A stretch of 64,000 nt of DNA, from the NCBI GenBank assembly GCA_900316845.1, contig ONEG01000004.1:153790-217789 (forward strand), given 5' to 3'. Position 1 is the first letter of the stretch. Every line of letters begins with the position of its first letter. The DNA comes from an uncultured Bacteroidales bacterium (GTDB lineage: Bacteria; Bacteroidota; Bacteroidia; Bacteroidales; Paludibacteraceae). The notes beneath the pieces are model-generated. The model saw only the letters and a program-made list of their open reading frames with translations. It made no database searches and was not told the origin of the DNA. This document shows, piece after piece, positions 6,566 through 46,140 of the stretch. The position numbers and the translations under genes were made by a program.

Positions 6566-6609
6566 AGCATTCGATGAGCATTCGATGAGCATACGATCAG
6601 CATTCGATT
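6566..6609. repeat. 44-bp block of four 11-bp units
   Basis: agcattcgatg twice, agcatacgatc, agcattcgatt, just after a stop codon. The same length and unit number recur at 22414, 38955 and 46097 with different sequences. Confidence 0.9.
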
Positions 6610-6693
6610 GGGTACTTAGGCAATGCTTAGTTAAGAGAGAATTTGGAGAGAAGAGAAGCAATCCTTTTGAAAAAGGAACAAGCTGAGAAAATG

Positions 6694-6724
6694 AAAAGGC
6701 AGTCACGAGTGTGGCTGCCTTTTT
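6694..6724. terminator. rho-independent terminator
   Basis: AAAAGGCAGTCAC, loop GAGT, GTGGCTGCCTTTT with flanking A and T runs, so it can work in both directions between convergent genes. Confidence 0.85.
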
Positions 6725-6735
6725 GGGGGGATGAG

Positions 6736-6756
6736 ACGACCTTTTTGTTTGGTCGT
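6736..6756. terminator. hairpin, possible terminator
   Basis: ACGACC, a T-rich 9-base loop, GGTCGT. It lies downstream of the small minus-strand ORF at 6783-6914; a second small hairpin sits at 6764-6775. Confidence 0.4.
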
Positions 6757-6782
6757 GATTTTAGGTGTAAACACCGGGATTT

Positions 6783-6914
6783 TTAGATTGGTTGAACGCC
6801 TGAGCCGGAACCTCCGTATTGGAGGTTTCCACCGCGGACAGAAACGACGCAGATGGTGTTCATGAGACAAGTTTGCTGAATTGTCGTTTTGGGTTGATTA
6901 TATATCTTTTTCAT
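6783..6914 (-). CDS. 43-residue 'MKKxYxxP' peptide
   Basis: An ORF of 43 codons begins MKKIYNQPKTTIQQTCLM and ends in a Gly/Ser-rich tail (GGSGSGVQPI). Many Bacteroidales genomes carry short orphan ORFs starting MKK-(T/I)-Y-x-x-P with a degenerate core and Gly-rich end. It lies 41 bases downstream of the large beta-helix gene on the same strand, so it could be its last cistron. A 7-bp hairpin falls within the coding region (6807-6829). I infer that it is real from its start, composition and position; its role is unknown. Confidence 0.5.
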   Translation of the reverse strand: MKKIYNQPKTTIQQTCLMNTICVVSVRGGNLQYGGSGSGVQPI

Positions 6915-6955
6915 AATAGTTGTCATTTAAAGGGTTAAACAAATCTCAATTCAGG

Positions 6956-9841
6956 TTACTTAATCATTATACCCATTGCATTATAGCGTACACCATCGCG
7001 AATGATGATGAGTTGTCCGTTCTCGAGGTATTTACCATCGTTCTTAGCATCATTGATGAGGTTGATTGAGGTGGCTTCACCCGTTCGCTCGATGATGTTC
7101 ATACGTCTGATAACCGGAGCAGCTGCGCCATGGATAGTGAACCAAGCGCGGAATCCTTTAATCGGAGTGTCCACTTCGGGGTAATAAAGTGTGTTGTCCG
7201 GACCGAGGTATAGAATGTCGGTATTGGCAGTAAGGGTCGTAGAAACGAATGTGCCAACGAAGTTTGCGTTTGTCTTAGTCGTGGCAGACGGAGTGGCACA
7301 TTTGAATTGAACACCAGTAAAGATCGGATTCACGATATCCGTATAGGGCTTAATGAATACCGGTGTACCTTGGTAAATGTCGCTGGAGTTGTTGAGTGTA
7401 ACATTCAGGGCCTCGCCTTCAGCAGTAGCGTCTCCGAGGGTGTAAATCTCTACATCATTTCCAAAGACAGCTTTGCATTGGCTATAAGAAACAGCGAACG
7501 GCAAGCAGAAGGTGTTGTACATACCGGCTCTGAGCGTACGGATGATTTGTACGTCGTATGTGTTTTCATCGTTGACTTTACTTGCCCATGCGGAGTTGTC
7601 TGTTGCGTTCTCGGAAATAAATAGAGAGTTAGGAGATTCTGTGACTTCGAAGCTAACCAGATAACCGTGCGAATAATAAGTTGTGTTCTCTACCTTCACG
7701 AAGTAGTTACCGGCAGGAAGAGCGAAATAATGAGTGATCGTTTGGGCTCCGCTATGAGGATTATTTTCGTATGAGTCAACGGGATTCTCGGCATCGTCCT
7801 TGATAGAAATTCTGTAGCTCTGTCCATTGTCACTATTGACATTCATAGTGAAAAGGAAGAGGCCGTCGTGGTCGGTTGCTATAGCCCACTGTGCCCATTC
7901 TCCGAGAGGGTTGGTGTCACCGATAGGAGCGAAATACAGATTACCGTCGGTGACATGTGCATTTGCGCTTAAAACGGCTTGGTTGAACGGTAGCACGTCA
8001 GGAAGATTGATTGTAGAGGAAACAACCGGCGCAAAGATGAGAGAAGTGATTTTCGCGATAGAACCACTCGGAGCGTTGGTCACTTTGACGATGTAGTTCT
8101 TTCCTCCAACAAGATTGATGCGTCCTAAAGCGAGCGCCAAAACGCCTGTTGAAGAAACATACGAGCCTTCCGTAACAGAAGCGACAGCCGGTTCAGCTTC
8201 GTTCTCAAATACCTCAACGGTCAGGCCGTGTGCATTAGGAGCGTCGATGTTGAGGGTGATGTCATAGAACGCAGTTTCTGAAGTAGAGATGTTCCACTTA
8301 ATCCATGCTGAGGATGTACCGGAGGACGGGAACTGGATGTAATCTGCATCGCGGGTACAACCAGAGAACAAGGCGTCGGCGATGTTCAGGGTAGTGTTGG
8401 CAGAAGGAGAAACAGGGATAACTGCTCCGCCGATGTAAGAGAGGGTGATATTATCAATTTGAGCAGAAGTCCATGCTTGATCATCATTCAGAGTAATAGT
8501 GTAATCACCTTCTGTTGGGATAGAAATAGATCCTGGCAGAGTAGATGCTTGTTCGGACAATTCGCCAACACTAATACCATCTGCATCCAATATTTCAACT
8601 TTAAGTTTATGCACGGTAGGGCTTCCAGCATGTAAGTTAAGGGCAACTCCCACAACACAAGCCCTTTCTGCATGAATCTTCCACATTGCAGTACCGTTTG
8701 TGGATTTATTATTATAATAAAGATACTCATTTACATCATCATACCAGATGTTTCCATTCAATTTTGCTTTGTCTCCAGTAAGTTGGTAAGGCGAAGCGAA
8801 ATCGGTAGAAGGAAGGACGGGAGCTGTGTACCAACGCGGGTCGCCGAGGTCGGAACCATCAGTAGCAGCTGCTACAGCAGGAGAGATGGACATCGTAACC
8901 CAGTTGTTTGGGAATGTATATTTGTCGTTGGCAAGGTCGTTGAAAAGCGGATCAGCAGCTGCACAATTAGTAACTGTACAACCATATGCGATACCTGCAC
9001 GCTCCTGATCTTTAGTAAAGTTGTATGTCAGACAGTTGGAAACAGAACCACCTCCATCGCAATAAACGGCGCGTTGGGCCAATTCAGTAGGGTGCATGAA
9101 AATACAGTTAGAAACGGAAACATCGCTTAAAAAATGTGTGCGAATGTTTGCATGTCCGGAATCAACACAAGGATTGTTATAGAAAGTACAATGGTCGATG
9201 ATAACTTTGATAGCGTCAGAAGTTGTAGATGTAGCTGTACTGAATGGACGAACCTCTATAATACTTCTCCAGTCGGTTAATGCAGTAGTATTCGCAAAGG
9301 TAGAATTCCTGACAATTAATTGGTCACAAGTTTCTGTACCTTCAGTTATGCTTTGAGCGAAATAAATAGATTGTTTTTGGTTATTATGGAAATAACAGTT
9401 ATTTACGTTTAAAGTGCCAGTATGAGTCCCTGCGTCTCCATAAATAACGATGTTTTTCATGTTACGGAACTCACATCCATCTAAGTTCAGGCTATTCACA
9501 TTATACTGACGGATAATATAAGAATACGAACCCTGATCGCTTCCATCAAATATAATGTTTTTTATCACAACGTCTTTACCACCATCAACTTTAATATAAG
9601 TATGAAGTTGAACGATAGGCGTAGCGCCTTCTGCAGCTTGAATTTCAACGCTTTTATTAAACTCAATGTAATTGTTATCGGTGTACGTACCATCTGCAAG
9701 GATAAGTACATCGCCATCAACAGTAGTGGAGGCAGCCAAAGCATAACGAATCGTGTTTACGCCCGGCGCGATGTTGATTGTCTTTGCATTAGCGAAAAGT
9801 GATAGCACTAATGCGGGGAGGAGTAGAAAAAGTTTTCTCAT
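6956..9841 (-). CDS. large secreted beta-helix protein with C-terminal tail
   Basis: A 961-residue exported protein with a signal peptide at 1-19. Residues about 20-340 form a right-handed parallel beta-helix of the pectate-lyase/chondroitinase-B type (repeated strands such as KDVVIKNIIFDGSD, LNVNNCYFHNN, VIIDHCTFYNN). Three beta-sandwich modules follow, with pattern SAWIKWNISTSETAFYDITLNI and KNYIVKV. The end, NGQLIIIRDGVRYNAMG, is a tail shared with three other proteins here. No catalytic lyase triad could be identified, so binding or hydrolysis is open. It is transcribed away from the AgaS operon from a shared upstream region. Confidence 0.75.
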   Translation of the reverse strand: MRKLFLLLPALVLSLFANAKTINIAPGVNTIRYALAASTTVDGDVLILADGTYTDNNYIEFNKSVEIQAAEGATPIVQLHTYIKVDGGKDVVIKNIIFDGSDQGSYSYIIRQYNVNSLNLDGCEFRNMKNIVIYGDAGTHTGTLNVNNCYFHNNQKQSIYFAQSITEGTETCDQLIVRNSTFANTTALTDWRSIIEVRPFSTATSTTSDAIKVIIDHCTFYNNPCVDSGHANIRTHFLSDVSVSNCIFMHPTELAQRAVYCDGGGSVSNCLTYNFTKDQERAGIAYGCTVTNCAAADPLFNDLANDKYTFPNNWVTMSISPAVAAATDGSDLGDPRWYTAPVLPSTDFASPYQLTGDKAKLNGNIWYDDVNEYLYYNNKSTNGTAMWKIHAERACVVGVALNLHAGSPTVHKLKVEILDADGISVGELSEQASTLPGSISIPTEGDYTITLNDDQAWTSAQIDNITLSYIGGAVIPVSPSANTTLNIADALFSGCTRDADYIQFPSSGTSSAWIKWNISTSETAFYDITLNIDAPNAHGLTVEVFENEAEPAVASVTEGSYVSSTGVLALALGRINLVGGKNYIVKVTNAPSGSIAKITSLIFAPVVSSTINLPDVLPFNQAVLSANAHVTDGNLYFAPIGDTNPLGEWAQWAIATDHDGLFLFTMNVNSDNGQSYRISIKDDAENPVDSYENNPHSGAQTITHYFALPAGNYFVKVENTTYYSHGYLVSFEVTESPNSLFISENATDNSAWASKVNDENTYDVQIIRTLRAGMYNTFCLPFAVSYSQCKAVFGNDVEIYTLGDATAEGEALNVTLNNSSDIYQGTPVFIKPYTDIVNPIFTGVQFKCATPSATTKTNANFVGTFVSTTLTANTDILYLGPDNTLYYPEVDTPIKGFRAWFTIHGAAAPVIRRMNIIERTGEATSINLINDAKNDGKYLENGQLIIIRDGVRYNAMGIMIK

Positions 9842-9881
9842 AGTGTTAAAAAATTTAAAGTTAATAATTCAAAAAACGATG

Positions 9882-9889
9882 CAAAGGTA
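9882..9889 (-). promoter_or_regulatory. -7 box of the beta-helix gene promoter
   Basis: TACCTTTG followed by GC on the minus strand, 41 bases before the start codon. Confidence 0.75.
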
Positions 9890-10030
9890 CGAAAAAAATA
9901 AGGAACACGCGTGAGGGAATAAATGTTTTAAAACATATTTATAATTATTTTTTTTTGTTGAAAAAGTCCGTAAGCATTTATAAGCTATGCTTATAAGGGA
10001 TAAAACGAAAAGGAAATGGAAATGTGATTT

Positions 10031-10052
10031 TTTGTTTCGTAATGTTTCGAAA
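10031..10052 (+). promoter_or_regulatory. candidate DeoR/AgaR operator
   Basis: TTTGTTTCGTAATGTTTCGAAA contains spaced TTTCG elements like those bound by DeoR-family repressors such as AgaR. It lies about 145 bases upstream of the agaS promoter. Inferred. Confidence 0.4.
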
Positions 10053-10110
10053 GAAGAAAATCATCTGAGCGTTCAAATTGTAAGTTGCTGAATTATAGGC
10101 GATTACGATG

Positions 10111-10146
10111 TTTTTGTTTCGGAATTCAGCAGGTTCGTTTCGGAGA
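10111..10146 (+). promoter_or_regulatory. second candidate DeoR/AgaR operator
   Basis: TTTGTTTCGG and TTCGTTTCGG occur within 36 bases, 50-85 bases before the agaS -7 box. Confidence 0.4.
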
Positions 10147-10195
10147 TGTGTTATATAGCATATTTTATACGTGTGCGTAAGTGAAAATAAAATAG

Positions 10196-10203
10196 TAATT
10201 TTG
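10196..10203 (+). promoter_or_regulatory. -7 box of the agaS operon promoter
   Basis: TAATTTTG followed by CG. The promoter at 23462 has nearly the same context (AGTAATTTTGCG, with AGCATATT upstream), suggesting common control. Confidence 0.65.
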
Positions 10204-10215
10204 CGGTCGAAATGA

Positions 10216-10274
10216 GTATAGACCGCTAACGCTGACGGAATACAGACCGGCTTGCGGCCTGACAGAGCACAGAA
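10216..10274 (-). repeat. GTCTGT..CTGTCAG repeat, copy in the agaS leader
   Basis: On the minus strand it reads CTGTCAGGCCGCAAGC, CGGTCTGTATTCCGTCAG, CGTTAGCGGTC. Copies of the same element are found in frame inside the aroA chimera at 38626 and 39150. It lies in the untranslated leader of agaS. Confidence 0.75.
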
Positions 10275-10303
10275 AACAAAACAATTAAAATTTCATAAGC
10301 AAT

Positions 10304-11425
10304 ATGAAAACTGGATTTACATTCAAAGAGATTCATCAACAGCCTGCTATGTGGAGGAAAGAGATGGAGGCATTGTTAGCAAAGAAGGCGGAGGTAAGTG
10401 CATTCATGCACAAGTATTTGACTCCTGAGACCGACGTTGTGTTATCGGGTGCCGGCACATCTGCTTTTATCGGCGATGCGTTGCAGCCTGTGATGCGTGG
10501 TATGTGGCAAAACGTTCGTTCGGTAGCTACAACCGATCTGATCACTCATGCCGAGTATCTGTTGGACAAAGAGAGACCGTTGTTGCTGATCAGTTTTGCT
10601 CGTTCGGGAAATAGCCCGGAGAGCGTAGGAGCGGTTAATCTGGCCAATAAGATTTGCAAGAACGTGGCGCATGTCTATATCACTTGTAACAAGAACGGCA
10701 AGTTGGCTCTGCAGGCAGAGGGCAAAGATAATATCTTGTTACTGCAGTTACCGGACGAGACGGACGACAAGAGTCTTGCGATGACGAGCAGTTTCTCGAC
10801 AATGTTACTGACCTGTCTGATGTTGGGCCGCATCGATCGTCTGGATCAAGATGTAGATATGATCGAGAAAGTGGCGCAGAATGCCGAGGCGGTGATTGCG
10901 AACTATGAAGAGAAACTGAGAGAGATCGCTGAGCGTCCGTTTGAGCGCGGTGTGTTCCTGGGCTCGGGTGCGCTGAAGGGTATCGCCGAAGAGTGCCATC
11001 TGAAACTGCAAGAGTTGACGGACGGCGCTGTGGTATGTAAGTTCGACAGTTTCTTAGGTTTCCGCCATGGTCCGAAAGCGGTGGTGAACGACAAGTCGAT
11101 TGTTGTTTATCTGATGGTGGACGACGAGAAGGTACAGCGTTACGAGCGCGATTTGGTTCGTCAGGTAGATGCCAACAATAAGCCGGTAGCACAGGTGATT
11201 GTGATTGCAGGAAAGAAGCCGGAGTTAGAGGGCGTAAAGACAGATTTGGTTGTACAAATGCCTTATGGTCCAGATGAGAATGATTTCTACGGAATCGTCG
11301 CGTACGTGCTCGTGGGACAATTATTAGGCTTCTACGCGAGTCACGCGCACGGATTGAATCCAGACGCTCCGAGTGTGAGCGGAAACATCCACAGAGTGGT
11401 AGAGGGTGTGACCATCTACGAATAA
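10304..11425 (+). CDS. agaS: AgaS-type SIS isomerase/deaminase
   Basis: A 373-residue protein with two SIS (sugar isomerase) domains, about 45-175 and 210-340. LSGAGTSAFIGDAL and SFARSGNSPESVGAV are the sugar-phosphate-binding loops of domain 1; FLGSGALKGIAEECHLKLQELT and GFRHGPKAVV belong to domain 2. AgaS enzymes deaminate and isomerise galactosamine 6-phosphate to tagatose 6-phosphate. It leads an operon with a GatZ protein and a PfkB kinase, which supports that role. The leader of about 95 bases carries a dispersed repeat. Confidence 0.85.
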   Translation: MKTGFTFKEIHQQPAMWRKEMEALLAKKAEVSAFMHKYLTPETDVVLSGAGTSAFIGDALQPVMRGMWQNVRSVATTDLITHAEYLLDKERPLLLISFARSGNSPESVGAVNLANKICKNVAHVYITCNKNGKLALQAEGKDNILLLQLPDETDDKSLAMTSSFSTMLLTCLMLGRIDRLDQDVDMIEKVAQNAEAVIANYEEKLREIAERPFERGVFLGSGALKGIAEECHLKLQELTDGAVVCKFDSFLGFRHGPKAVVNDKSIVVYLMVDDEKVQRYERDLVRQVDANNKPVAQVIVIAGKKPELEGVKTDLVVQMPYGPDENDFYGIVAYVLVGQLLGFYASHAHGLNPDAPSVSGNIHRVVEGVTIYE

Positions 11426-11432
11426 ATCCAAG

Positions 11433-11490
11433 TACTATTTGGTCATGTACCATTTGGTCATTTATTGAATCATTTAGTCATTTAATCATT
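11433..11490. repeat. CATTT 8-bp repeat array
   Basis: Units such as taccattt, ggtcattt, agtcattt, aatcattt fill the spacer between agaS and the gatZ-like gene. Related to copies at 279, 2533, 5944 and 45546. Confidence 0.75.
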
Positions 11491-11502
11491 TATAAAAGTA
11501 AT

Positions 11503-12732
11503 ATGGCAAAGACAGAAAATATCCTCCGCGTAATGGAGGAAAGAAAAAAAGCAACGGGAGTACCGATGACGTTATTTGCAGCATGTCCGAACTCCTTGTC
11601 AGTAATCAAAGCATCGTTCCGCGCGGCAAAGCGTAATAACTCGCCGATCTATTTTGCGACGACGCTGAATCAGGTGGACTGCGACGGCGGTTATACGGGT
11701 ATGACGCAGGCAGAGTTCACGAAGATCTTAGCTCGTGAGGCTGCAGCGGTTCATTACACGGGTCCGTATGTAGTTGCTATCGATCACGGCGGTCCGTGGT
11801 TGAAGGACAAACAGAGTATCGAGCGTTGGGATACCGAGCGCGCGATGGACGGCGTGAAGAAAAGTTACGAGGCGGCTCTTCTTGCTGGCTACGACCTCAT
11901 TCACGTGGATCCGACGGTAGATATCTTCCTGCCCAAAGGCGAAATCATTGATATTCATGTTGTAGTTAAACGAACAGTTGAGTTGATTTTGCACGCCGAG
12001 AACTTCCGTAAGGCTCATGGCATAACTCCGATCAGCTATGAAGTAGGCACAGAGGAAGTTCACGGCGGTCTGGCAGACGAGAAGACGTTTGACACGTTCC
12101 TCGAGGGTCTGAAACAAGGTCTGCATGAGGTGGGTCTGGATGATATCTGGCCTTGCTTCATCGTGGGCAAAGTAGGAACGGATTTGCACACGACTTTCTT
12201 TGATCCGGAGGTAGCGCGCAAACTGACGGCAAAGGTTCGTCCTTACGGCAGTTATATCAAGGGTCACTACACCGACGATGTGGACAATCCGGAGGATTAT
12301 CCGAAGGCAGGCATGGGCGCTGCGAACGTTGGTCCGGAGTTCACGATGAACGAGTACGAGGCGCTGGCTGAGTTGGAGGAAGAGGAGAAGAAACTCTACG
12401 CAGAGGGCAAGATTGCGCAGTTAAGTCACATGACCGAAGTGCTCTGGCAATGCGTTTATGAGAGTAACCGCTGGAAGAAATGGCTGCACGGTGAGGAGGT
12501 CGGCAAAGACCTGAAGGAGTGTACCCCGGAGAGACAGTTATGGCTTGTGATGACCGGTTGCCGTTATATATGGCAGAAGCCGGAAGCGCTGGTTGCTCGT
12601 CAGACCTTGTATGAGAACTTAGAGCGTCTGGGTATCCATGCAGAAGAGGTTGTGCTGATGCGCATTGAGCATAATATGGATAAATACTACAATGCATTCA
12701 ATATCGTTAATCTGAACGACTATCTGAAATGA
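11503..12732 (+). CDS. GatZ/KbaZ family protein (tagatose-bisphosphate aldolase subunit type)
   Basis: A 409-residue protein of the GatZ/KbaZ/AgaZ family. Landmarks: TLNQVDCDGGYTGMTQAEF, VVAIDHGGPWLKD, HVDPTVD, SYEVGTEEVHGG and FIVGKVGTDLHT. In enterobacteria this chain supports the catalytic class II aldolase GatY/KbaY. No GatY partner is present in this window. Some GatZ-type proteins from other phyla act alone as 4-epimerases of tagatose/fructose 6-phosphate, so that is a real alternative here. It overlaps the next gene by four bases. Confidence 0.85.
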   Translation: MAKTENILRVMEERKKATGVPMTLFAACPNSLSVIKASFRAAKRNNSPIYFATTLNQVDCDGGYTGMTQAEFTKILAREAAAVHYTGPYVVAIDHGGPWLKDKQSIERWDTERAMDGVKKSYEAALLAGYDLIHVDPTVDIFLPKGEIIDIHVVVKRTVELILHAENFRKAHGITPISYEVGTEEVHGGLADEKTFDTFLEGLKQGLHEVGLDDIWPCFIVGKVGTDLHTTFFDPEVARKLTAKVRPYGSYIKGHYTDDVDNPEDYPKAGMGAANVGPEFTMNEYEALAELEEEEKKLYAEGKIAQLSHMTEVLWQCVYESNRWKKWLHGEEVGKDLKECTPERQLWLVMTGCRYIWQKPEALVARQTLYENLERLGIHAEEVVLMRIEHNMDKYYNAFNIVNLNDYLK

Positions 12733-14129: not shown

Positions 14130-14134
14130 TAATC

Positions 14135-15168: not shown

Positions 15169-15180
15169 TACCATACAATT

Positions 15181-22322: not shown

Positions 22323-22366
22323 AAAAGAGGTACAAAATGTATATATATACATAGTATATATATAGT

Positions 22367-22406
22367 AAAAGAGGGGCGAAAAATTGGTTTCGCTCCTCTT
22401 TTTTTG
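22367..22406 (+). terminator. rho-independent terminator
   Basis: AAAAGAGGGGCGAAA, loop AATTGG, TTTCGCTCCTCTTTTTTT. It ends the 10-22 kb operon. Confidence 0.9.
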
Positions 22407-22413
22407 TGGATTC

Positions 22414-22457
22414 ATCCTATGGTGATCCTATGGTGATCTTATGGTGATCCTATGGTG
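22414..22457. repeat. 44-bp block of four 11-bp units
   Basis: atcctatggtg, atcctatggtg, atcttatggtg, atcctatggtg, between the terminator and the 3' end of the DeoR gene. Confidence 0.9.
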
Positions 22458-22468
22458 CGGGTCTTATA

Positions 22469-23245
22469 TTATACTATTTTGACGTCTATATTCATCGCTT
22501 TGAGTTTGGTAGCCATGCCAGCGGGGATGGCGGAGTCGGTAATGATGGTGTTGAGGTCTTTGGCGTTGGCGACGAAGGAGAAGCTTCGTTTGTTGAATTT
22601 GGAGGAGTCAAAGACTGCGATCACCTGTGAAGCCTGCTGAATCATGAGTTGGTTGAGAAGCGCTTCTTCGAGGTTCGGGGTAGAGATGCCGTTTTCCAAG
22701 GAGAAGGAGTCCACGCCGAGGAAGAGTTTGTACTCGGTGAAGTTTCGGAGGACGGAGAGTGCAAGGGGTCCGACGGTGGAGTAGCTGTTGAGGCGTACGT
22801 GTCCGCCGATGAGGACTACCTCGAAGCGTTTGTAGACCATCAGTTCCATAGCGATGTTGAGGGCATTGGTCACGATATGGAGGTTATGGAACTTGTGGAG
22901 GTTTTTGGCAATCTCCATGGTGGTTGTACCGCTGTCAAGCATGATGTAATCACCCTCTTTGATGAGTTTGGTAGCTTCGATTCCGATGCGCTCTTTCTCC
23001 CGGAAGTTAAACATCCGTTTCTTGGTGATGGCGGTATCTTCGTTGAGGTTCTCGATGGGTTTTCTTATGGCTCCGCCTCGTGTGCGGATGAGGAGTTTGC
23101 GGTTTTGCAGGATGGTCAGATCCTTACGAATGGTCACTTCCGAAATACCGGTTTCCTTGCTCAATTCAGAAACCAGGACCTCCTCTTTGGTCTCAAGTTG
23201 TTTTAAGATAAGCGCTCTGCGCTCTTTGGCGGATGAGAGATTCAT
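22469..23245 (-). CDS. DeoR-family transcriptional regulator (AgaR-like)
   Basis: About 258 residues. N-terminal winged helix (SSAKERRALILKQLETKEEVLVSELSKETGISEVTIRKDL) and C-terminal sugar-phosphate sensor domain (DSGTTTMEIAKNL, TNALNIAMEL, LIGGHVR, LGVDSFSLENGIST, FDSSKFNKRSF). The ATG at 23245 is chosen because the DeoR motif starts right after it and the promoter lies 27 bases upstream; a longer frame would start inside the promoter. DeoR repressors respond to sugar phosphates. It faces a glycan locus and TTTCG sites lie in the shared upstream region and in front of agaS, so both are likely targets. Confidence 0.85.
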   Translation of the reverse strand: MNLSSAKERRALILKQLETKEEVLVSELSKETGISEVTIRKDLTILQNRKLLIRTRGGAIRKPIENLNEDTAITKKRMFNFREKERIGIEATKLIKEGDYIMLDSGTTTMEIAKNLHKFHNLHIVTNALNIAMELMVYKRFEVVLIGGHVRLNSYSTVGPLALSVLRNFTEYKLFLGVDSFSLENGISTPNLEEALLNQLMIQQASQVIAVFDSSKFNKRSFSFVANAKDLNTIITDSAIPAGMATKLKAMNIDVKIV

Positions 23246-35791: not shown

Positions 35792-35812
35792 CACCCGCAA
35801 AAACAAAAGCAT

Positions 35813-37983: not shown

Positions 37984-39840
37984 TTGTTAAAAAAGAACAG
38001 TAGTGAATTGAATATTTCCCTTCCAATATCAAAGAGTATAGCGAATAGAATTCTTCTATTGCAGGCTATCCATGGAGATCCGCTTATGCGGGTCTCTTCG
38101 GATATGCCCGACGACGTCCTCGTCCTCCACGATGCCCTGGAACAACTGCAAACCTTCAAACAAGGCGCAGCCCAAAACTCCAAACAAGCACCTTTGGTGC
38201 TCAACCTCAAGAATTGCGGTACCGCCCTCCGCTTCCTCCAAGTCCACATCGCCAAATGTTATCCCGGCGCACCGATCACCCTTACCGGCGATCCGCGTCT
38301 CATGGAGCGAGACGGTAAACCCACCACTCAAACGACCTCTGCCCTCATCCTCCACGGTGAACCCATCCCCGTAGCCGAAAACGAGTCTCCTTATATTACG
38401 ATGAGCCGCCGCATGGTCTCCATGTATCAGCCATGCATGGCTGATGATATAGAGCCATGTTGGTCTTCCGCGGCCTTCTGGTATGAGTACGTAGCCATCC
38501 ATGGCGGCGAGTTACTCCTTGAAGGTCTCCAACCCGATTCCCTCCAAGGCGACCGTATAGTAGCCGACCTCTACGCCACCCACTTTGGCGTCCAAACAGA
38601 GTTTATAGAAGATGGAGCAGTGATTCGGTCTGTCAGTCCAAAGGACGGTCTGTATTCTGTCAGCGAAGCGGTCTGTCAGCCGAAGGCGGTCTCCATCGAC
38701 TTTTTCAACTGCCCCGATCTCTATCCCGCCATCGCTTTAACCTGCGAACGCCTCGGAATAACCCTTCTGGCCACCGGTACCGACCGTCTCCGCCACAAGG
38801 AATCCGACCGCATAGAAGCCGTCCGACTCCACGAAGTCCGCAACGACCACCGGATGGCGATGGCCCTCCTTGCCGCAGATTTTCCGGTCGCTGAATCCGA
38901 ACAAACCTGCATCGCCAAAAGCTATCCCCAATTCCCCGAAATTTACCGTCGAATAACGACGGTCGAACGACGGTCAAACGACGGTCAAACGACGGTCAAA
39001 GCCAATGTAAGTACTCTGTCGGTTACCCATATTACCCCTATTCGGGGCGTCAACGATGACAATTTAGGCAAAAAACATGCCCTCTCCAAACTCATCCACG
39101 CCGCCACGACAGAATATATCTGGCTCCATGATGACGATGTTATTTTGCCGCCTGTCTGTCAGCCCGAAGGGCGGTCTGTATTCTGTCAGCCGAAGGCGGT
39201 CTGTCAGCATAGCGGTCTTGTAATTTTGCCCTTAAAGATGGAAAGCGAAAGCGACGAGCCATCTTTATTGGAAAAATTACAGATTGCCGAATACGCTGCC
39301 ATCCAGGAGTTGACGATGCGTACCGCCAAACGCGGTCATGCCGTCATGTGTTCCGGCGCGAACCTCATCGTCCGTCGTGAGGCATGGCTTGCTTGTGAGC
39401 CTGACCTCCATCCGGAGATCCCTTCCGGCGACGATATGTTCCTGTTGGAAGCAATGAAAAAGCGCGGCTACAAGATCTCCGTCATCGACGAACCCGACTT
39501 CACCGCCGTCGTTCGTCCTCAAACCACTTGGCGGGCGTTCTTCCGTCAGCGAATGCGTTGGGCAGGCAAAGCACCCAAATACACCGACCCGGACATCCTC
39601 CGTTGCGGCGCACTCATCGTGGCTGCCAACCTCCTCCAACTCCTTTGTCCCCTGATCCTCTTGATCAAATTCCCGATAGAGTACTCCCTCATCCGCCGGC
39701 GGCAAATGAGGGAGCATAAAATTATCAATTATCAATTATCAATTATCAATTTCTCAATAGCTTTGCTATTGGAGCTCCTCTATCCTTTCTATATCCTCCT
39801 CTCCCTCCTCGGCGGCCTCTTCCGCCAGAAGAAGTGGTGA
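37984..39840 (+). CDS. aroA: EPSP synthase fused to a truncated glycosyltransferase
   Basis: 618 residues, TTG start. Residues 10-345 are an EPSP synthase (shikimate step 6): ISKSIANR, NCGTALRFL, GDPRLMERDGKP, TTQTTSALIL, DLYPAIA, LRHKESDRI, NDHRMAMALLAA, KSYPQFPEIY. All key residues are seen, but about 45 and 30 residues usual in the family are missing after RLMERDGKP and after RIEAVRL. From about 355 a GT2 domain begins in mid-fold (GKKHALSKLIHAATTEYIWLHDDDV, PSGDDMF, RQRMRWAGK, two membrane helices); the N-terminal 75 residues with the usual nucleotide-binding strand are absent. Repeats lie in frame at four places, one at the joint. It may be a living chimera or a decaying locus; the frame is open throughout. 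Confidence 0.8.
   Translation: MLKKNSSELNISLPISKSIANRILLLQAIHGDPLMRVSSDMPDDVLVLHDALEQLQTFKQGAAQNSKQAPLVLNLKNCGTALRFLQVHIAKCYPGAPITLTGDPRLMERDGKPTTQTTSALILHGEPIPVAENESPYITMSRRMVSMYQPCMADDIEPCWSSAAFWYEYVAIHGGELLLEGLQPDSLQGDRIVADLYATHFGVQTEFIEDGAVIRSVSPKDGLYSVSEAVCQPKAVSIDFFNCPDLYPAIALTCERLGITLLATGTDRLRHKESDRIEAVRLHEVRNDHRMAMALLAADFPVAESEQTCIAKSYPQFPEIYRRITTVERRSNDGQTTVKANVSTLSVTHITPIRGVNDDNLGKKHALSKLIHAATTEYIWLHDDDVILPPVCQPEGRSVFCQPKAVCQHSGLVILPLKMESESDEPSLLEKLQIAEYAAIQELTMRTAKRGHAVMCSGANLIVRREAWLACEPDLHPEIPSGDDMFLLEAMKKRGYKISVIDEPDFTAVVRPQTTWRAFFRQRMRWAGKAPKYTDPDILRCGALIVAANLLQLLCPLILLIKFPIEYSLIRRRQMREHKIINYQLSIINFSIALLLELLYPFYILLSLLGGLFRQKKW
38426..38445. repeat. 20-bp perfect palindrome within aroA
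   Basis: ATCAGCCATGCATGGCTGAT, coding for part of an insertion (QPCMADD) absent from other EPSP synthases. Confidence 0.7.
38626..38692 (+). repeat. GTCTGT..CTGTCAG repeat, in-frame copy 1
   Basis: Units CGGTCTGTCAGTCCAAAGGA, CGGTCTGTATTCTGTCAGCG, CGGTCTGTCAGCCGAAGG. Adds about 20 residues to the EPSP synthase half. Confidence 0.8.
38955..38998. repeat. 44-bp block of four 11-bp units at the fusion joint
   Basis: aacgacggtcg once, then aacgacggtca three times, directly after the EPSP synthase end and before the glycosyltransferase part. Encodes TTVERRSNDGQTTVK. Confidence 0.9.
39150..39219 (+). repeat. GTCTGT..CTGTCAG repeat, in-frame copy 2
   Basis: CTGTCTGTCAGCCCGAAGGG, CGGTCTGTATTCTGTCAGCC, CGGTCTGTCAGCATAG inside the glycosyltransferase half, after the DDD motif. 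Confidence 0.8.
39721..39748. repeat. 7-bp tandem array attatca x4
   Basis: Four units in frame, encoding IINYQLSI before a membrane helix. Confidence 0.85.
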
Positions 39841-39842
39841 GG

Positions 39843-40274: not shown

Positions 40275-40278
40275 ATTG

Positions 40279-40368
40279 TTATCCTAATACTACATCGAGA
40301 ACCATCATCAGCACGAAGCCGATAGCGCAGATGACAAAATGGATGCTGACAGAAGGGAACGCGTTACA
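40279..40368 (-). pseudogene. remnant: C-terminal end of a ZIP metal transporter
   Basis: An open frame of 29 codons without a start reads ...AFPSVSIHFVICAIGFV then LMMVLDVVLG and stop, matching the last helix of ZIP-family zinc transporters, which commonly end in MMVLDVALG. Everything upstream has been lost. Confidence 0.6.
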
Positions 40369-40471
40369 TCATTTCGATGAGGAAGTTCTCGTAACCCAGC
40401 TTGTCGATGTAGTTGAGGTACTGCTTCTCCCAAGCCATGTGCTCTACCTCGCCGTCGATCCATTTTAAAAG
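40364..40471 (-). pseudogene. remnant: C-terminal end of an unidentified protein
   Basis: An open frame (KWIDGEVEHMAWEKQYLNYI then DKLGYENFLIEMM, stop) starts after a stop and has no proper start codon. It looks like the coding end of a helical protein that I do not recognise. It overlaps the ZIP remnant by 5 bases in another frame. Confidence 0.5.
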
Positions 40472-40475
40472 TTAA

Positions 40476-41015
40476 TTACAATAGTTTCAGGATTTCAGCC
40501 TCTATGTCTTCGGGTTTGGTGGTCGGAGCGAAACGGCCGACTACATTACCCTCGCGGTCCACGAGGAACTTGGTGAAGTTCCAACGGATGTCGGACTCTT
40601 TGTTATAGGTCTTGCTGATTTTCTTGAGCATGGCGCCGGTAGCCTTTGCACCCAGACCGTTGTACTCCTCGGTAGGAGCCTGCTCTTTGAGGTAGGTGAA
40701 TACCGGACTTTCGTTCTCGCCGTTCACCTCGATCTTCGAGAACTGCGGGAAGGATACATTGTATTTGAGCTGGCAGAAAGAAACGATCTCCTCATCGGAA
40801 CCCGGAGCCTGCTGACCGAACTGGTTGCAGGGGAAATCAAGGATCACTAGACCCTTCTCCTGATATTTCTTATAGAGGTTTTCGAGCGCCTCGTACTGCG
40901 GCGTAAATCCGCAACCCGTTGCGGTATTAACTATTAAAAGGACTTTGCCTTTGTACTCGTTTAATTTGACTTCATTCTTCTTGGTGTCCAGCACCGTAAA
41001 ATCATAGATCTTCAT
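40476..41015 (-). CDS. glutathione peroxidase-family peroxidase
   Basis: A 179-residue thiol peroxidase of the glutathione-peroxidase fold. [12 protein letters not shown] carries the peroxidatic Cys, [15 protein letters not shown] the Gln and a resolving-region Cys, and [22 protein letters not shown] the Trp/Asn of the active site. No signal peptide. In bacteria these usually work with thioredoxin. The promoter at 41099 leaves a leader of nearly 80 bases. Confidence 0.9.
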
Positions 41016-41098
41016 AATTTTATCTGTTTTAGAGTTATTTTCTGTTTGTGCGCAGGCCGGGGAGTATGATTTGTGTCGCTCGCGACTGAAATCGAGTG

Positions 41099-41106
41099 CA
41101 AAGGTA
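41099..41106 (-). promoter_or_regulatory. -7 box of the peroxidase promoter
   Basis: TACCTTTG followed by CACTC on the minus strand. Confidence 0.75.
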
Positions 41107-41210
41107 CAACAAATATTTTAATATCGCAAGCGACATATCTATAAATGGTGTATTTTCTTAATGAGAGTATATAAATTATTAAAATACATACTATATATAA
41201 AAACAACACA

Positions 41211-41236
41211 CGCGCGTACTAATTAAGGTACGCGCG
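41211..41236 (-). terminator. rnf operon terminator
   Basis: CGCGCGTAC, 8-base loop, GTACGCGCG; on the minus strand it is followed by TGTGTTGTTTTT. Confidence 0.7.
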
Positions 41237-41254
41237 CATGTATGCGTAAGGGTC

Positions 41255-41294
41255 CTAGGAAACTAGGATACTAGGATCCTAGGTTCCTAGAATT
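41255..41294. repeat. 8-bp tandem array ctaggNNN x5
   Basis: ctaggaaa, ctaggata, ctaggatc, ctaggttc, ctagaatt, directly after the rnfA stop. Confidence 0.85.
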
Positions 41295-41295
41295 A

Positions 41296-41898
41296 TTAAA
41301 CCACACCGCTGAAGCCCATGAAGGCCATCGCCAGGAGACCTGCGGTCAGGAGGGCGATCGGAGTGCCCTTCATTGCCTCGGGCACTTTGTTGAGTGCCAA
41401 CTGCTCGCGGATACCTGCGAAGAGGACGAGCGCGAGCGCAAAACCGATTGCTGTAGCGAAGGCATAAACGGTACCGGAGAGCAGACCGTAGTCGGCGCCC
41501 AGCGGCAGTTTAGCCAAGAGCTTGTTCTGGTCGGCTACGATAAGAGCCACACCGAGAATACAGCAGTTGGTGGTGATCAGCGGCAGGAACACACCCAGAG
41601 CCTGATAGAGCGCCGGAGACACTTTCTTCAACATGATCTCGATCATCTGCACGAGGGCGGCGATGACGAGGATGAAGAGGATGGTCTGGAGGAACTCAAC
41701 GCCCCAGAGGACGAGTAACTTCTGCAGCAGATACGTAACAACCGTAGCGAGCGTGAGCACGAACGTAACGGCGGCACCCATACCCAGCGCGGTGTCAATC
41801 TTCTTACTTACACCCAGGAACGGACAGATGCCCAGGAACTGGCTCAATACAATATTGTTAACAAATATTGCAGAGATGAAAATCAGAAAATATACCAT
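41296..41898 (-). CDS. rnfA: Rnf complex membrane subunit A
   Basis: 200 residues, six membrane helices. NNIVLSQFLGICPFLGVSKK and TTNCCILGVAL contain the conserved Cys residues that hold an intramembrane Fe-S centre with RnfE. Part of the ferredoxin:NAD+ oxidoreductase that pumps Na+ or H+. Last gene of the operon; five bases separate it from rnfE. Confidence 0.95.
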   Translation of the reverse strand: MVYFLIFISAIFVNNIVLSQFLGICPFLGVSKKIDTALGMGAAVTFVLTLATVVTYLLQKLLVLWGVEFLQTILFILVIAALVQMIEIMLKKVSPALYQALGVFLPLITTNCCILGVALIVADQNKLLAKLPLGADYGLLSGTVYAFATAIGFALALVLFAGIREQLALNKVPEAMKGTPIALLTAGLLAMAFMGFSGVV

Positions 41899-41903
41899 AA
41901 TAT

Positions 41904-42491
41904 TTATTTCTTTTGAAGTTTATTTACTGCCGCCATGAGGTAGGCGAGGCAGATGAACGCACCCGGAGCAAGTACGAAGATCAGCGCTGCGAACTGGCTG
42001 CTGTAGAGTTGGAAACCGAAGACGGTACCTGCACCTAAGAACTCGCGGATGATACCCAGCACGGTCAGCGAGAGGGTAAAACCGAGACCCATACCGATTC
42101 CGTCCAGCGCGGAGAGGCCGACGGTGTTCTTCGCTGCAAATGCCTCTGCACGGCCAAGTACGATACAGTTCACTACAATCAGCGGGATGAACAGACCCAG
42201 CACATCGTAGATAGCCGGCAGGTAAGCCTGCATGACAAGTTGTACCATCGTCACGAACGTAGCGATGACTACGATGAATGCCGGGATACGTACTTTATCC
42301 GGGATGAGATTCTTGAGGAGCGAGATCACTACGTTCGAGCAAACGAGCACGAAGAGCGTAGCCAAGCCCATGGACATACCGTTAACGGCACTGGTGGTAG
42401 TAGCCAGCGTAGGGCACATACCGAGAACCAACGCAAAAGTAGGATTCTCCTTGAGAATACCGTTGGTCAATGTTTTCATTGCGTTACTCAT
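41904..42491 (-). CDS. rnfE: Rnf complex membrane subunit E
   Basis: 195 residues, six helices, topologically opposite to RnfA. NPTFALVLGMCPTLATTTSAVNG and VVNCIVLGRAEAFA are the Cys-bearing motifs. Two bases separate it from rnfG. Confidence 0.95.
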   Translation of the reverse strand: MSNAMKTLTNGILKENPTFALVLGMCPTLATTTSAVNGMSMGLATLFVLVCSNVVISLLKNLIPDKVRIPAFIVVIATFVTMVQLVMQAYLPAIYDVLGLFIPLIVVNCIVLGRAEAFAAKNTVGLSALDGIGMGLGFTLSLTVLGIIREFLGAGTVFGFQLYSSQFAALIFVLAPGAFICLAYLMAAVNKLQKK

Positions 42492-42493
42492 AA

Positions 42494-43144
42494 TTATTCC
42501 TCCTTTTCTGCGGGTTGTACTTCAGTTACTTCAGCGGGTTGCTCTGCTGCCGGTTCTGCACCTTGCAGCTGGCTTGCGCCGGAAGCTGCCTCAACAGCCC
42601 CTTCAGCAACAGCTGCGTACGCTTTGTTGACAGCTTTCAGGAATGCGCGGCTGGAGATGGTGGCAGCGGTGATAGCATCTACGTCTCCGCCATCTTTGTT
42701 GACAGCCAGTGCGCCGGCTTTCTTACCGATGATAGAGCGGTTGCCGACAGCGTCCTTGAACCAGTGGTCGATATGCGCACCCAGACCCGGAGTCTCGGTC
42801 TGCTTGAGAACGACGTAGTCGAGCACTTCGCCTTCTTTGCCTAAGCCCACCATGATTACTTGCGGGCCGTCGAAACCGACTTCAGAGGTCTCTACCGCGG
42901 TAGCTACCCATTCGTCGTTGATGAAGGCTTTGTAGATGGTCAGCCCCTCAGCCTGCTCGGGTTCTGCGATAGAGCAGCCCTCCGGAAGCACAGCGAGGAT
43001 AGCGGCCTGCTGTTTCTGAGCCTCTTGTTTAGCGATGGTGGCTTCGGTGACAGCGTAAACGCCTGCCAGAGCTCCTGCGGCTACCATAGCGATGATAACC
43101 AGGGAGAGCACCATGTTCTTGAATGTACTTTCTAATTTTGCCAT
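42494..43144 (-). CDS. rnfG: Rnf complex FMN-binding subunit G
   Basis: 216 residues: one N-terminal membrane helix, then a periplasmic FMN-binding domain. KQTETPGLGAHI and the flavin-attachment region DAITAATISSRAFLKAV, in which a Thr is expected to carry covalent FMN. The Ala/Glu-rich C-terminus (after about 180) is low complexity. Confidence 0.9.
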   Translation of the reverse strand: MAKLESTFKNMVLSLVIIAMVAAGALAGVYAVTEATIAKQEAQKQQAAILAVLPEGCSIAEPEQAEGLTIYKAFINDEWVATAVETSEVGFDGPQVIMVGLGKEGEVLDYVVLKQTETPGLGAHIDHWFKDAVGNRSIIGKKAGALAVNKDGGDVDAITAATISSRAFLKAVNKAYAAVAEGAVEAASGASQLQGAEPAAEQPAEVTEVQPAEKEE

Positions 43145-43156
43145 AGTTGTGCCTCC

Positions 43157-44161
43157 TTATGCTTTTTTCGGTTCGCCGAAGTGTTGCGGACGAATCTTGT
43201 TCAACAATGGAACGCAAGCGTTCATGATCAGGATAGCGAAGGACATACCTTCGGGGTAGTTACCCCACGTACGGATGACCATTACGATGAATCCGATACC
43301 GATACCGAAGATGATCTTTCCCCACGCGCTCATCGGGCTGGTGACGTAGTCGGTTGCCATGAAGAAGGCACCGAGCATCAGACCTCCAGAGAGGAGTTCG
43401 TAGCCGATATAATGGCAGGTGTCCAGTCCCTCAGGCAGCGCACCGGCGAGACCTGTGCAAGCGCAGAAGCAAGCTACGGTACCGAGGATGGCTACAGGGA
43501 TGTGCCAGGTGATGACGCGGCAGCAGATGAGGAGAATACCTCCGATGAGCAGCGCTGCAGCGCTGACCTCACCGAGCGAACCGCCCATAACGCCGAGGAA
43601 CGAATCCATGAGAGACGGCAGCTGGTCAATGACGGATGAATCTCCGGCTTTGACGATGTGCTTGAGATAATAGAGCGGGGTAGCGCCTGTCTCGGCGTCC
43701 ACATACGCGCCGTTGAAGCCTTGCGGCGTCGGCCAGGTGGTCATTTGTGCCGGATAAGCGATGAGCAGGAAGACACGACCTACGAGAGCGGGGTTGAAGG
43801 GGTTCTGACCCAGACCGCCGAAAGTCATCTTACCAATACCGATAGCTACTACGGCACCGATAATAACGATCCACCAATCGATGGTAGAAGGAAGGTTGAA
43901 AGCGAGCAGCAGACCGGTGAGGACCGCCGAGAGGTCTCCGATGGTCTGACGTTGCTCTTTGAGCACATAACGGCTGATGACGTACTCGGTGCAGACACAT
44001 GCGAGAACCGAGATGGCAGCCGTGATCAATACGCCCCAGCCAAACTCCACTACTGCTACTGCGTAAGCAGGCATCAAAGCGAGAATGACCAGAAGCATAT
44101 TCCGGCGGACGGTATCACCACTGTGGGCGTGCGGAGCCGGAGCGACAATCAATTGTTTCAT
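43157..44161 (-). CDS. rnfD: Rnf complex membrane subunit D
   Basis: 334 residues, about nine helices. The covalent FMN motif TGATPL is at residues 158-163; FGGLGQNPFNPALVGRVFL is the family signature. Starts 30 bases after rnfC. Confidence 0.95.
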   Translation of the reverse strand: MKQLIVAPAPHAHSGDTVRRNMLLVILALMPAYAVAVVEFGWGVLITAAISVLACVCTEYVISRYVLKEQRQTIGDLSAVLTGLLLAFNLPSTIDWWIVIIGAVVAIGIGKMTFGGLGQNPFNPALVGRVFLLIAYPAQMTTWPTPQGFNGAYVDAETGATPLYYLKHIVKAGDSSVIDQLPSLMDSFLGVMGGSLGEVSAAALLIGGILLICCRVITWHIPVAILGTVACFCACTGLAGALPEGLDTCHYIGYELLSGGLMLGAFFMATDYVTSPMSAWGKIIFGIGIGFIVMVIRTWGNYPEGMSFAILIMNACVPLLNKIRPQHFGEPKKA

Positions 44162-44189
44162 AATTTATGATTTCAAATTTATGATTTAA
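44162..44189. repeat. 14-bp tandem duplication in the rnfC-rnfD spacer
   Basis: aatttatgatttca followed by aatttatgatttaa fills the 30-base spacer. Confidence 0.75.
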
Positions 44190-44191
44190 CA

Positions 44192-45538
44192 TTATTTTTT
44201 CGCTGCAGCGGCACGCTCACGGAGGATGGCGCCTACTTTTGCTTTACCCGGACGGATACCGTCTAAGAGACGGCGGTGAGCAGGACAGGTGAATACGCAG
44301 CAACCGCAGTCGATGCAATCCATGATGTCATGCTTCTCCAGTTCGTCCCACATCTCCAGTTCGCTGAGACGTTGGAGCAAGTACGGCTCGAGTCCCATCG
44401 GACAAGCCTGTACGCACTTGCCGCAACGGATACAGTTCTCTTGCTCCGGACGGATACACTCTGCTTCCGGCAGGAAGAGAAGGCCGGAGAGACGTTTGTT
44501 AGCCGGCATGTTCTCGATATGATCCATGGCGCGTCCCATCATCGGGCCACCGCCAATGACCTTTCCTGTATCTACAGGTACTCCTCCGGCGAGCTCAATC
44601 ACTTCCTCGATCGGCGTACCGAAACGAACGCAGTAGTTACCCGGGTTCTTCACGGATTTGCCGGTAACGGTCATGACGCGGCTGATGAGCGGTTTGTTCT
44701 TCTGTACTGCTTCATAAACGGCATAGATAGTAGCCACGTTATCCACTACGGCTCCCACTTCAATCGGGAGAGCACCGGAGGGCACCTGGCGACCGATAGT
44801 GGCATCGATGAGCTGTTTCTCGCCACCTTGCGGGTAACGGAGCTTGAGCGGCATGACCTCGATACCGAGTTGCTTCTCCGCCAGCTCGCGCATGTGTGCG
44901 ATGGCATCGGGTTTGTTGTTCTCAATACCGATGATAGCGCGCTGAACGCCCAGGGCTTTCTTGAGGATCTGGATACCGATGATGATCTCCTCGCCGTGCT
45001 CCATCATCAGCTGGTGGTCACAGGTCAGATACGGTTCGCACTCTACGCCGTTGACGATGAGCACTTCGGCTTTCTTGCCCGGAGGCGGCAGCAGTTTGAC
45101 GTGTGTCGGGAAGCAAGCGCCACCGAGACCTACTATACCTGCGGCTGCGATCTTGTCGATGATCTCCTTCGGCTCCAAGGTACACTGGTGTACGAGGTCC
45201 GGTTTGCGATCAATCTCCGGCAACCACTCGTCACCCTCTACGTCGATGTAGATAGCTTGTCCGGGAGCACCCCATGCGTCGGTCCAGTCACCGATCTTGG
45301 TGATCGTACCGCTTACAGGAGAGCAGATGTTTGCACTCACGAATCCGCCGGCTTTCGCCAGCAGTTCGCCCACTTTTACTTTCTTGCCAACCTCTACCAC
45401 GGCTTGAGCCGGCGCACCGATGTGCTGTACCAGAGGGATGATAGCCTGCTTTGGCAGCGGGCACTCTTTGATCGCCTGGTGTGCAGAGTATTGCTTGTTG
45501 TCCTGCGGATGAACTCCGCCAATATGAAATGTCCTCAT
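44192..45538 (-). CDS. rnfC: Rnf complex NADH-binding subunit C
   Basis: 448 residues. Peripheral subunit with a Gly-rich nucleotide/flavin site (GIVGLGGACFPTHVKL), a SLBB domain, and two 4Fe-4S motifs near the end, CIRCGKCVQACP and CIDCGCCVFTCP. It passes electrons between NADH and the other subunits. Confidence 0.95.
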   Translation of the reverse strand: MRTFHIGGVHPQDNKQYSAHQAIKECPLPKQAIIPLVQHIGAPAQAVVEVGKKVKVGELLAKAGGFVSANICSPVSGTITKIGDWTDAWGAPGQAIYIDVEGDEWLPEIDRKPDLVHQCTLEPKEIIDKIAAAGIVGLGGACFPTHVKLLPPPGKKAEVLIVNGVECEPYLTCDHQLMMEHGEEIIIGIQILKKALGVQRAIIGIENNKPDAIAHMRELAEKQLGIEVMPLKLRYPQGGEKQLIDATIGRQVPSGALPIEVGAVVDNVATIYAVYEAVQKNKPLISRVMTVTGKSVKNPGNYCVRFGTPIEEVIELAGGVPVDTGKVIGGGPMMGRAMDHIENMPANKRLSGLLFLPEAECIRPEQENCIRCGKCVQACPMGLEPYLLQRLSELEMWDELEKHDIMDCIDCGCCVFTCPAHRRLLDGIRPGKAKVGAILRERAAAAKK

Positions 45539-45545
45539 TTATTTA

Positions 45546-45577
45546 TTCATTTACACATTTACACATTTGTTCATTTG
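45546..45577. repeat. 8-bp tandem array in the rnfB-rnfC spacer
   Basis: ttcattta, cacattta, cacatttg, ttcatttg. The rnfB stop codon (45571-45573 on the minus strand) lies inside the last unit. Confidence 0.85.
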
Positions 45578-45987
45578 TTTTGCGCCATGGCGATGTTGAG
45601 CGGGAAGGCAGCTCTCGGTGTAGCGAGTGCTTTAATCTTCTCGGCGATAGCCGGATCGAAGCCCTTCTTGTCGCCGGTTTGAGCAGCAGGAGCTGCTTCT
45701 TCTGTCGCGGTTGGCGTAAGGATCTTCTTTACTTCATCCATGGTCGGGTCACCACCCACAGGGCAGGCCAGACCCTCTGTACTACCGGCTTTGACGCACG
45801 CTTCTGCGAAGTTGCGGCAACCGGCAAATCCGCAGCCACCGCAGTTAGCACCAGGCAGAACGGCCTGTACCAAGTCGATGCGCGGATCTTCCTCTACTTT
45901 GAAGAACTGGCTGACAAAATAGAGCAGGATCGCTGCTACCAAGGCTGTCACACCAAGAACTCCCATAGAAATCAGAATCAGATTCAT
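45571..45987 (-). CDS. rnfB: short RnfB lacking the ferredoxin domain
   Basis: Only 138 residues. Residues 1-28 form the membrane anchor; 38-80 hold the first 4Fe-4S site (PGANCGGCGFAGCRNFAEACV...GLACPVGG) and the usual DPTMDEVKKIL. RnfB of Bacteroides is about twice as long and has at least two further 4Fe-4S motifs. Here Ala/Thr-rich residues follow, then a stop inside an 8-bp repeat array. All other subunits look complete, so the complex may work with an external ferredoxin or be impaired. Confidence 0.85.
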   Translation of the reverse strand: MNLILISMGVLGVTALVAAILLYFVSQFFKVEEDPRIDLVQAVLPGANCGGCGFAGCRNFAEACVKAGSTEGLACPVGGDPTMDEVKKILTPTATEEAAPAAQTGDKKGFDPAIAEKIKALATPRAAFPLNIAMAQNK

Positions 45988-46039
45988 GTTGGTTGTTGTT
46001 TTAAATGTTTGTTATTAGAATTTTTTAATATTTTTTATT

Positions 46040-46083
46040 ATATACTCCGTGTGTGCTTCCAATATACTCCGTGTGTGCTTCCT
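46040..46083. repeat. 22-bp tandem duplication
   Basis: atatactccgtgtgtgcttc plus CA, then the same with CT. Total length 44 bases, 13 bases before another 44-bp block. Confidence 0.85.
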
Positions 46084-46096
46084 GCCTAAGTCCTCC

Positions 46097-46140
46097 ATCG
46101 GATGCTCATCGGGTGCTCATCGGATGCTCATCGGGTGCTC
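46097..46140. repeat. 44-bp block of four 11-bp units
   Basis: atcggatgctc and atcgggtgctc alternate twice. Reverse complement resembles the block at 6566. Lies between the rseC-like gene and rnfB. Confidence 0.9.

Follow-up and report, generated by a model that had tools for sequence, protein, structure and literature searches.

The genome of an uncultured Bacteroidales bacterium (Paludibacteraceae) carries, at dispersed loci, small arrays built on a tandemly repeated word of 11 base pairs (bp). We describe them from a window, a stretch of 64,000 bp (GenBank assembly GCA_900316845.1, contig ONEG01000004.1, positions 153,790 to 217,789; C28:153790-217789 in our numbering), within this source genome (G000; 2.34 Mb in 37 contigs), and from its near relatives, which are Bacteroidales/Paludibacteraceae metagenome assemblies, many of ruminant gut origin. 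Each genome that we examined closely holds several families of such arrays. They are probably small non-autonomous elements whose blocks are copied in full to permissive slots and which genes tolerate when the word is free of stop codons. The core would most often be four copies long (~44 bp), with a short conserved tail in some families, and a family would spread when a whole block, its variant units in order, is copied to a new place.

Families of 11-bp arrays and their copy number

The window contains four 44-bp blocks of four 11-bp units, as a first-pass annotation of this DNA had claimed. Tandem Repeats Finder reports period 11 at 6566-6608 (3.9 copies), 22414-22457 (4.0 copies), 38955-39000 (4.2 copies), and 46096-46140 (4.1 copies; also listed as 2 × 22). 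A separate period scan recovers identical arrays, with none in three Markov shuffles of the window and likewise none in larger shuffled samples. Counted as full 11-mers in register, each with three or fewer mismatches to the family consensus, the units number four at all four loci. A fifth block, at 46040-46082, is 2 × 22 according to Tandem Repeats Finder, again as annotated. The units had also been called unrelated. This is true of the array at 38955 (ACCGACGGTCA family), which is clearly distinct from the other window units, but those at 6566 (GAGCATTCGAT, plus strand) and 46097 (GAGCATCCGAT/GAGCACCCGAT, minus strand) match at 10 of 11 positions. By eye, the word at 22414 (CACCATAGGAT, minus strand) has a weak skeleton in common with both, below the level of 9 of 11.

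Pattern searches over the entire source genome, with reversed patterns as control (0 loci), assign these arrays to two dispersed groups. The A group has 16 loci, divided into A1 (GAGCATWCGAT), A2 (CACCATARGAT), and A3 (GAGCAYCCGAT), and the B family (WMCGACGGTCA) has 18; a smaller family C (AACCCTTACAA type) is present as well. We fetched all 34 A and B loci for comparison. Exactly four units are found at every A locus (16/16), and B loci have either four (10/18) or three (8/18). Of the annotation's reading, a constant period with units that vary is borne out, with a copy number near four, at these loci and at orthologous places across species. The order of variant units is common to five of the seven A2 loci (in two of these five, unit 1 has a different first base), and subgroups of B likewise have an order in common, which indicates that blocks were copied whole. 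Beyond the array, B elements have a conserved right tail of ~12 bp. A2 elements have an AT palindrome downstream of the array. Its distance is 30 bp at six of the seven loci; the window copy is the exception, with 45 bp. The features of the window are as follows.

6565..6608, plus strand: A1 array, 4 × 11 bp, GAGCATTCGAT type, 7 to 8 bp past the stop of an open reading frame (ORF) with a CBM9 domain (Pfam)
22342..22369, minus strand: AT palindrome of the A2 element, beginning 45 bp downstream of the array
22401..22469, minus strand: 69-bp stretch with the A2 array; 1 bp at the orthologous place in G022, an empty site
22414..22457, minus strand: A2 array, 4 × 11 bp, CACCATAGGAT type, 11 bp past the stop of a DeoR-family gene (Pfam)
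37984..39840, plus strand: ORF comprising an EPSP synthase stretch, the B array, and a glycosyltransferase stretch
38955..38998, plus strand: B array, 4 × 11 bp, AACGACGGTCA, in frame in the EPSP-synthase/glycosyltransferase ORF
38999..39010, plus strand: conserved right tail of the B element, AARGCYAANGTNA type
46038..46155, minus strand: 118-bp stretch with the A3 array and the 2 × 22 block; 3 bp in G022
46040..46083, minus strand: 2 × 22 block in the rseC-rnfB spacer, downstream of the A3 array
46097..46140, minus strand: A3 array, 4 × 11 bp, GAGCAYCCGAT alternating, in the rseC-rnfB spacer, 9 bp past the rseC stop

Some arrays in relatives (L031, L051, L058, L046-L048 in the rseC-rnfB spacer, and L026 near 9221) are followed by a conserved TATCGTATCC...CACCC, an AT palindrome, and CCCGTGATTTT. 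This segment occurs in either orientation, and its layout of array, spacer, and AT palindrome is like that of A2.

Period and word across genomes

Among 957 kb of relatives' loci, we found 27 period-11 arrays, with a median of 4.1 copies (interquartile range 3.5 to 4.5). The 456.5 kb scanned in the source genome, window included, held 10 (median 4.0, interquartile range 3.6 to 4.2), and 512 kb of more distant loci held two. We reject coincidence, the outcome that the annotation had named as fatal to its own proposal, and likewise artefact: shuffled sequence yields no such arrays, and the arrays recur in other assemblies (L029 and G022).

Period 11 recurs, as had been expected, but it is not alone, for period 7 and, in the source genome, period 8 are about as common or commoner. 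Period 7 accounts for 50 arrays in the relatives' loci, nine in the source genome, and eight in the more distant loci; period 8 accounts for 11 in the source genome; and periods 10 and 12 are rare. Period 11 is thus one of two or three favoured periods. Intergenic autocorrelation is raised at lag 11, but this lag does not stand out, because lags 2-4, 6-10, 12, 20-22, and 24 are raised too.

The period-7 arrays (AATTATC, AATTGTC) include window 39720-39751, L019 at 14549 and 15384, L020 1800-1913, and L129. Their sites are just ahead of start codons, in an apparent signal-peptide region, and in isoleucyl-tRNA synthetase. Several of those in the source genome are missing or replaced in its closest relative, G022, which at the place of window 39720 has a period-7 array of a different word. 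Across the rnf operon (window 41890-45570) and its counterparts in relatives, the RnfB-C, C-D, and E-A spacers of many relatives carry A/T-rich repeats of 7 to 8 bp directly before the start codon, and the RnfD-G spacer mostly has TAAGGAGG at that place.

We compared 52 consensus words with one another, rotation and strand allowed, and 39 pairs agree at no fewer than 9 of 11 positions; shuffled words averaged 3.75 such pairs and never gave more than 8 (60 shuffles). Some of the pairs are from near-identical genomes, and an L contig and a G genome may belong to one organism. B dimers are present in 22 of 41 genus genomes, and one word of G009, where it has six loci, in 4 of 41. Words therefore form families, some common to several species and others local. 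The annotation had read the unit sequence as free and had suggested a process that copies local or diverse sequence. Free choice of sequence at every locus, with local copying, is not supported, given the dispersed families, the unit order common to A2 loci, and the excess of cross-species matches over shuffles.

Slots in spacers and reading frames

The arrays occupy permissive slots: just past stop codons, in operon spacers, between divergent genes, and in protein linkers or loops. Gene positions here come from a simple codon-usage gene finder, not from annotation, and gene identities from Pfam. The three A arrays of the window lie 7 to 11 bp past stop codons. At six of the seven A2 loci, the genes on either side are divergent and the array is followed by a TAnnTTTG box at +100 to +194. 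Of the genes beside these six arrays, the ten tested are mostly unrelated housekeeping genes, one of them without a Pfam match; A2 neighbours include OmpH, Mfd-like, LptD, Rho, DAGK, UvrD-like, and SAM synthetase genes. We reject a regulon marked by A2, because the adjoining genes have no common function. Among the 37 period-11 arrays counted in 51 relatives' loci, 13 lie no more than 60 bp past a stop, four in predicted ORFs, one before a start, and 19 elsewhere between called genes.

B arrays stand in frame inside predicted ORFs at 6 of 18 loci. The host ORFs encode the EPSP synthase/glycosyltransferase of the window, an Fe-S/flavin oxidoreductase, an ATPase with two ABC domains, an M16 peptidase, a CNNM/CBS protein (near its C-terminus), and isoleucyl-tRNA synthetase. 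Several of these arrays fall between domains or at a domain edge; in the synthetase, for example, the insert separates tRNA-synt_1 from Anticodon_1. The peptidase insert lies inside the M16_C domain match. Another six B loci begin no more than 50 bp past a stop, and all 12 arrays in either position are co-oriented with the gene. The remaining six are farther from a called gene, at the end of a stretch, or not classed.

A period of 7, 8, or 11 is not divisible by three, so each word is read in all three frames and a stop-free word is open in every one. Such a word could sit in a gene wherever it landed, and a stop-bearing word would tend to close a frame. Within the source genome, the stop-free B family has members inside genes, and the stop-bearing A group has none there. 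Words in coding slots are T-poor (11% T with B included); outside the source genome, 8 of 13 coding words are, like B, stop-free in all frames, and the other five have a stop in some frame. Frame neutrality may be why genes tolerate the arrays, though not as an absolute rule. The A words contain TGA or TAG, and we considered an all-frame stop cassette; as a general account it is rejected, because B and those eight words are stop-free.

In the window ORF at 37984-39840, the EPSP synthase and a glycosyltransferase without its usual start are joined at the B array as one open frame, a join also found in G022 DNA. REP-like words (TCTGTCAGCGAAGCGGTCTGTCAGC) lie in frame within coding sequence at window 38650-38700 and 39150-39215, and also in L121 and L122. 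They occur in the EPSP-synthase stretch, among other places, and their copy number varies between G000 and G022. Elsewhere in the window, a region with short ORFs on the minus strand (58600-60150) holds a 20-bp tandem array and many copies of AATTTATACAAGCT about 31 to 33 bp apart.

The slots turn over: orthologous slots across species hold different words or none. Comparison with G022 was possible at 10 period-11 sites of the source genome, of which three are empty in G022, six are filled in both, and one is unclear. The empty sites are those of 22414 (69 versus 1 bp), 46040 with 46097 (118 versus 3 bp), and L120 (149 versus 28 bp); the flanks of window 46038..46155 are 95 to 96% identical to G022 on the left and 68 to 69% on the right. 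Two of the six that are filled in both, L020 and L121, show full identity across 45 bp, with flanks 92 to 94% identical. Other arrays filled in both genomes differ in units or unit number, for example L025 (34 versus 45 bp) and 38955.

Within the rseC-rnfB spacer, period-11 arrays are present in 10 of 53 rows, window included, and use seven different words. L046 has an apparent eleventh by eye, below threshold; L030 and many other relatives have no array there. We also aligned three protein linkers, leaving out the source-genome rows and one duplicate G014 row. A short tandem array was significant (P ≤ 0.01, 500 shuffles per row) in 21 of the 51 in-genus rows, 13 of them with period 11 and mostly with other words, and in 0 of 23 rows from other genera; with the rows that we left out, the in-genus figure is 25 of 55. 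The control gene RnfC had no internal period-11 array in 51 loci, where three period-48 similarities were found.

Known repeats and competing explanations

We file the arrays under small dispersed repeats, and none of the nearest kinds that we compared, as described in the passages of the reports cited here, has this architecture. Rickettsia palindromic elements are palindromes of 105 to 146 bp with long stem-loops that are also fused in frame in conserved protein genes (PMC2229807). Like them, and like in-frame fusions of miniature inverted-repeat transposable elements (MITEs), our arrays are small and dispersed, have open frames, and occur both between genes and in frame in conserved genes, as the in-frame B arrays and the filled linker rows attest. 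The same source describes a stop-bearing 155-bp Correia form that is nearly confined to intergenic DNA (PMC2229807). Unlike the Rickettsia elements, the cores here are head-to-tail direct repeats of 11 bp spanning ~44 bp, have a palindrome only in the A2 tail, and change their word between species. BrickBuilt of Porphyromonas gingivalis, a minisatellite MITE with a 23-bp unit in 1 to 22.8 copies, terminal inverted repeats, and an always intergenic location, is likewise a dispersed Bacteroidales repeat with a tandem direct-repeat core and conserved flanking segments (PMC4596501). Our arrays differ in their 11-bp unit, their three or four copies, and the six B arrays in ORFs; no inverted ends are visible by eye, with no systematic search for them. 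TAACTGA heptamers of Beggiatoaceae, cyanobacteria, and some Bacteroidetes repeat a single unvarying word of 7 bp, and most of them stand immediately before a start codon (PMC4679880). They resemble our period-7 arrays; the 11-bp arrays, in contrast, use many words and lie mostly past stops, in spacers, or in linkers (in the relatives, 13 of 37 past a stop against one before a start). REP elements are also small dispersed chromosomal repeats, but they are palindromic and 20 to 40 bp long (PMC3733652), whereas ours are direct repeats, and matches to Y1_Tnp are absent from several array-bearing genomes. We recognized no 4 × 11 element among titles and abstract openings of the open-access literature on 11-bp or 22-bp Bacteroidetes/Bacteroidales arrays or on in-frame, heptamer, and tandem repeats, a scope outside which most subscription literature falls. 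We reject a known structured RNA, because the arrays have no Rfam match; one tRNA was the sole match at gathering score in the window, L112, L118, L122, and L051.

Several points weigh against dispersal as whole-block elements. Within a family the count of four was inherited, so that the seven A2 copies, all derived from a single block, are one instance of it; and the five coding words with a stop mean that frame neutrality is no strict rule. No significant array is present in 30 of the 51 in-genus linker rows (for the synthetase, for example, in G002, G003, G008, G011, and G016). The ratio of filled to empty slots is moreover biased, because the protein slots were picked for carrying an array in the source genome and the G022 stretches partly for array matches. 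All genomes are draft assemblies, mostly metagenome bins. Transposon ends, terminal inverted repeats, and target-site duplications were not visible by eye in the flanks of the 34 loci or at the 22414 empty site, with no systematic search for ends; nothing CRISPR-like was seen at the arrays either, in keeping with the annotation's statement that they are neither transposon nor CRISPR. We identified no mobility gene for the arrays. Y1_Tnp, the REP-type transposase, has matches (E ≤ 0.001) in no more than 12 of the 26 genus genomes, with 9 above the cut-off, and none in the array-bearing G002, G004, G006, and G015. A REP element moved by a Y1 transposase is rejected, because the transposase is not consistently present.

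A bolder reading, which seems rather unlikely, is that an active process of the genus writes or copies DNA some four 11-bp steps at a time, largely irrespective of sequence, and places it in permissive slots including reading frames; period and copy number, not sequence, would then define a new kind of mobile or templated element. Templated writing, in which a DRT10-like or telomerase-like reverse transcriptase would make tandem-repeat DNA that is captured at chromosome breaks, we consider highly improbable. DRT10 does offer a precedent, making tandem-repeat complementary DNA (with a 9-nucleotide repeat in one case) whose motif length and sequence vary between systems, though the passages describing it are silent on chromosomal arrays (PMC12632851). 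The words here are short and partly species-specific; yet units within one block differ at fixed positions, in an order common between loci, which is not expected from one short template. No reverse transcriptase turned up in a crude motif screen of low power, which covered 670 genes predicted in the smaller part of G000 and G022 that was sampled.

Regulators of the PhoB/OmpR type bind direct repeats of 11 bp, and the arrays could be phased 11-bp half sites for a DNA-binding or nucleoid protein, kept by selection; the annotation had also suggested sites read by a protein array. The fixed 30-bp distance from array to palindrome and the box that follows between divergent genes at six A2 loci would suit this, as would the two arrays that are identical in G022 within less conserved flanks. 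Unrelated neighbouring genes, B arrays inside reading frames, and different words in one slot in different species make such binding sites quite unlikely. Ordinary minisatellites, arising without mobility when strand slippage causes neutral tandem duplication at insertion-tolerant sites, with common words due to chance, descent, or gene conversion, are also unlikely. Many arrays do lie in spacers and linkers of free length, some orthologous arrays are longer or shorter by a unit or have different unit variants (L025 versus G022; 38955), and the clade has many arrays of other periods, especially 7 and 8. However, one word recurs at 16 (A) and 18 (B) loci with variant order in common, and slippage should spread copy number, which ranges from 1 to 22.8 in the BrickBuilt passages (PMC4596501), whereas every A locus has exactly four units. 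Dispersal of whole blocks as small non-autonomous elements probably accounts for the arrays better, and one guess is that four phased helical turns may be recognized at the DNA level.

If this reading is right, the genus lengthens and rewrites the linkers of conserved proteins, such as isoleucyl-tRNA synthetase, and the spacers between its genes by means of tiny direct-repeat elements, and species would often have different words at one spot. Anyone who annotates these genomes or builds protein trees for the group would then run into repeat inserts in frame. The arrays would raise the question of which machinery sets the step of 11 and the count of four, and they would serve as a natural experiment on the origin of new peptide segments and on their tolerance.
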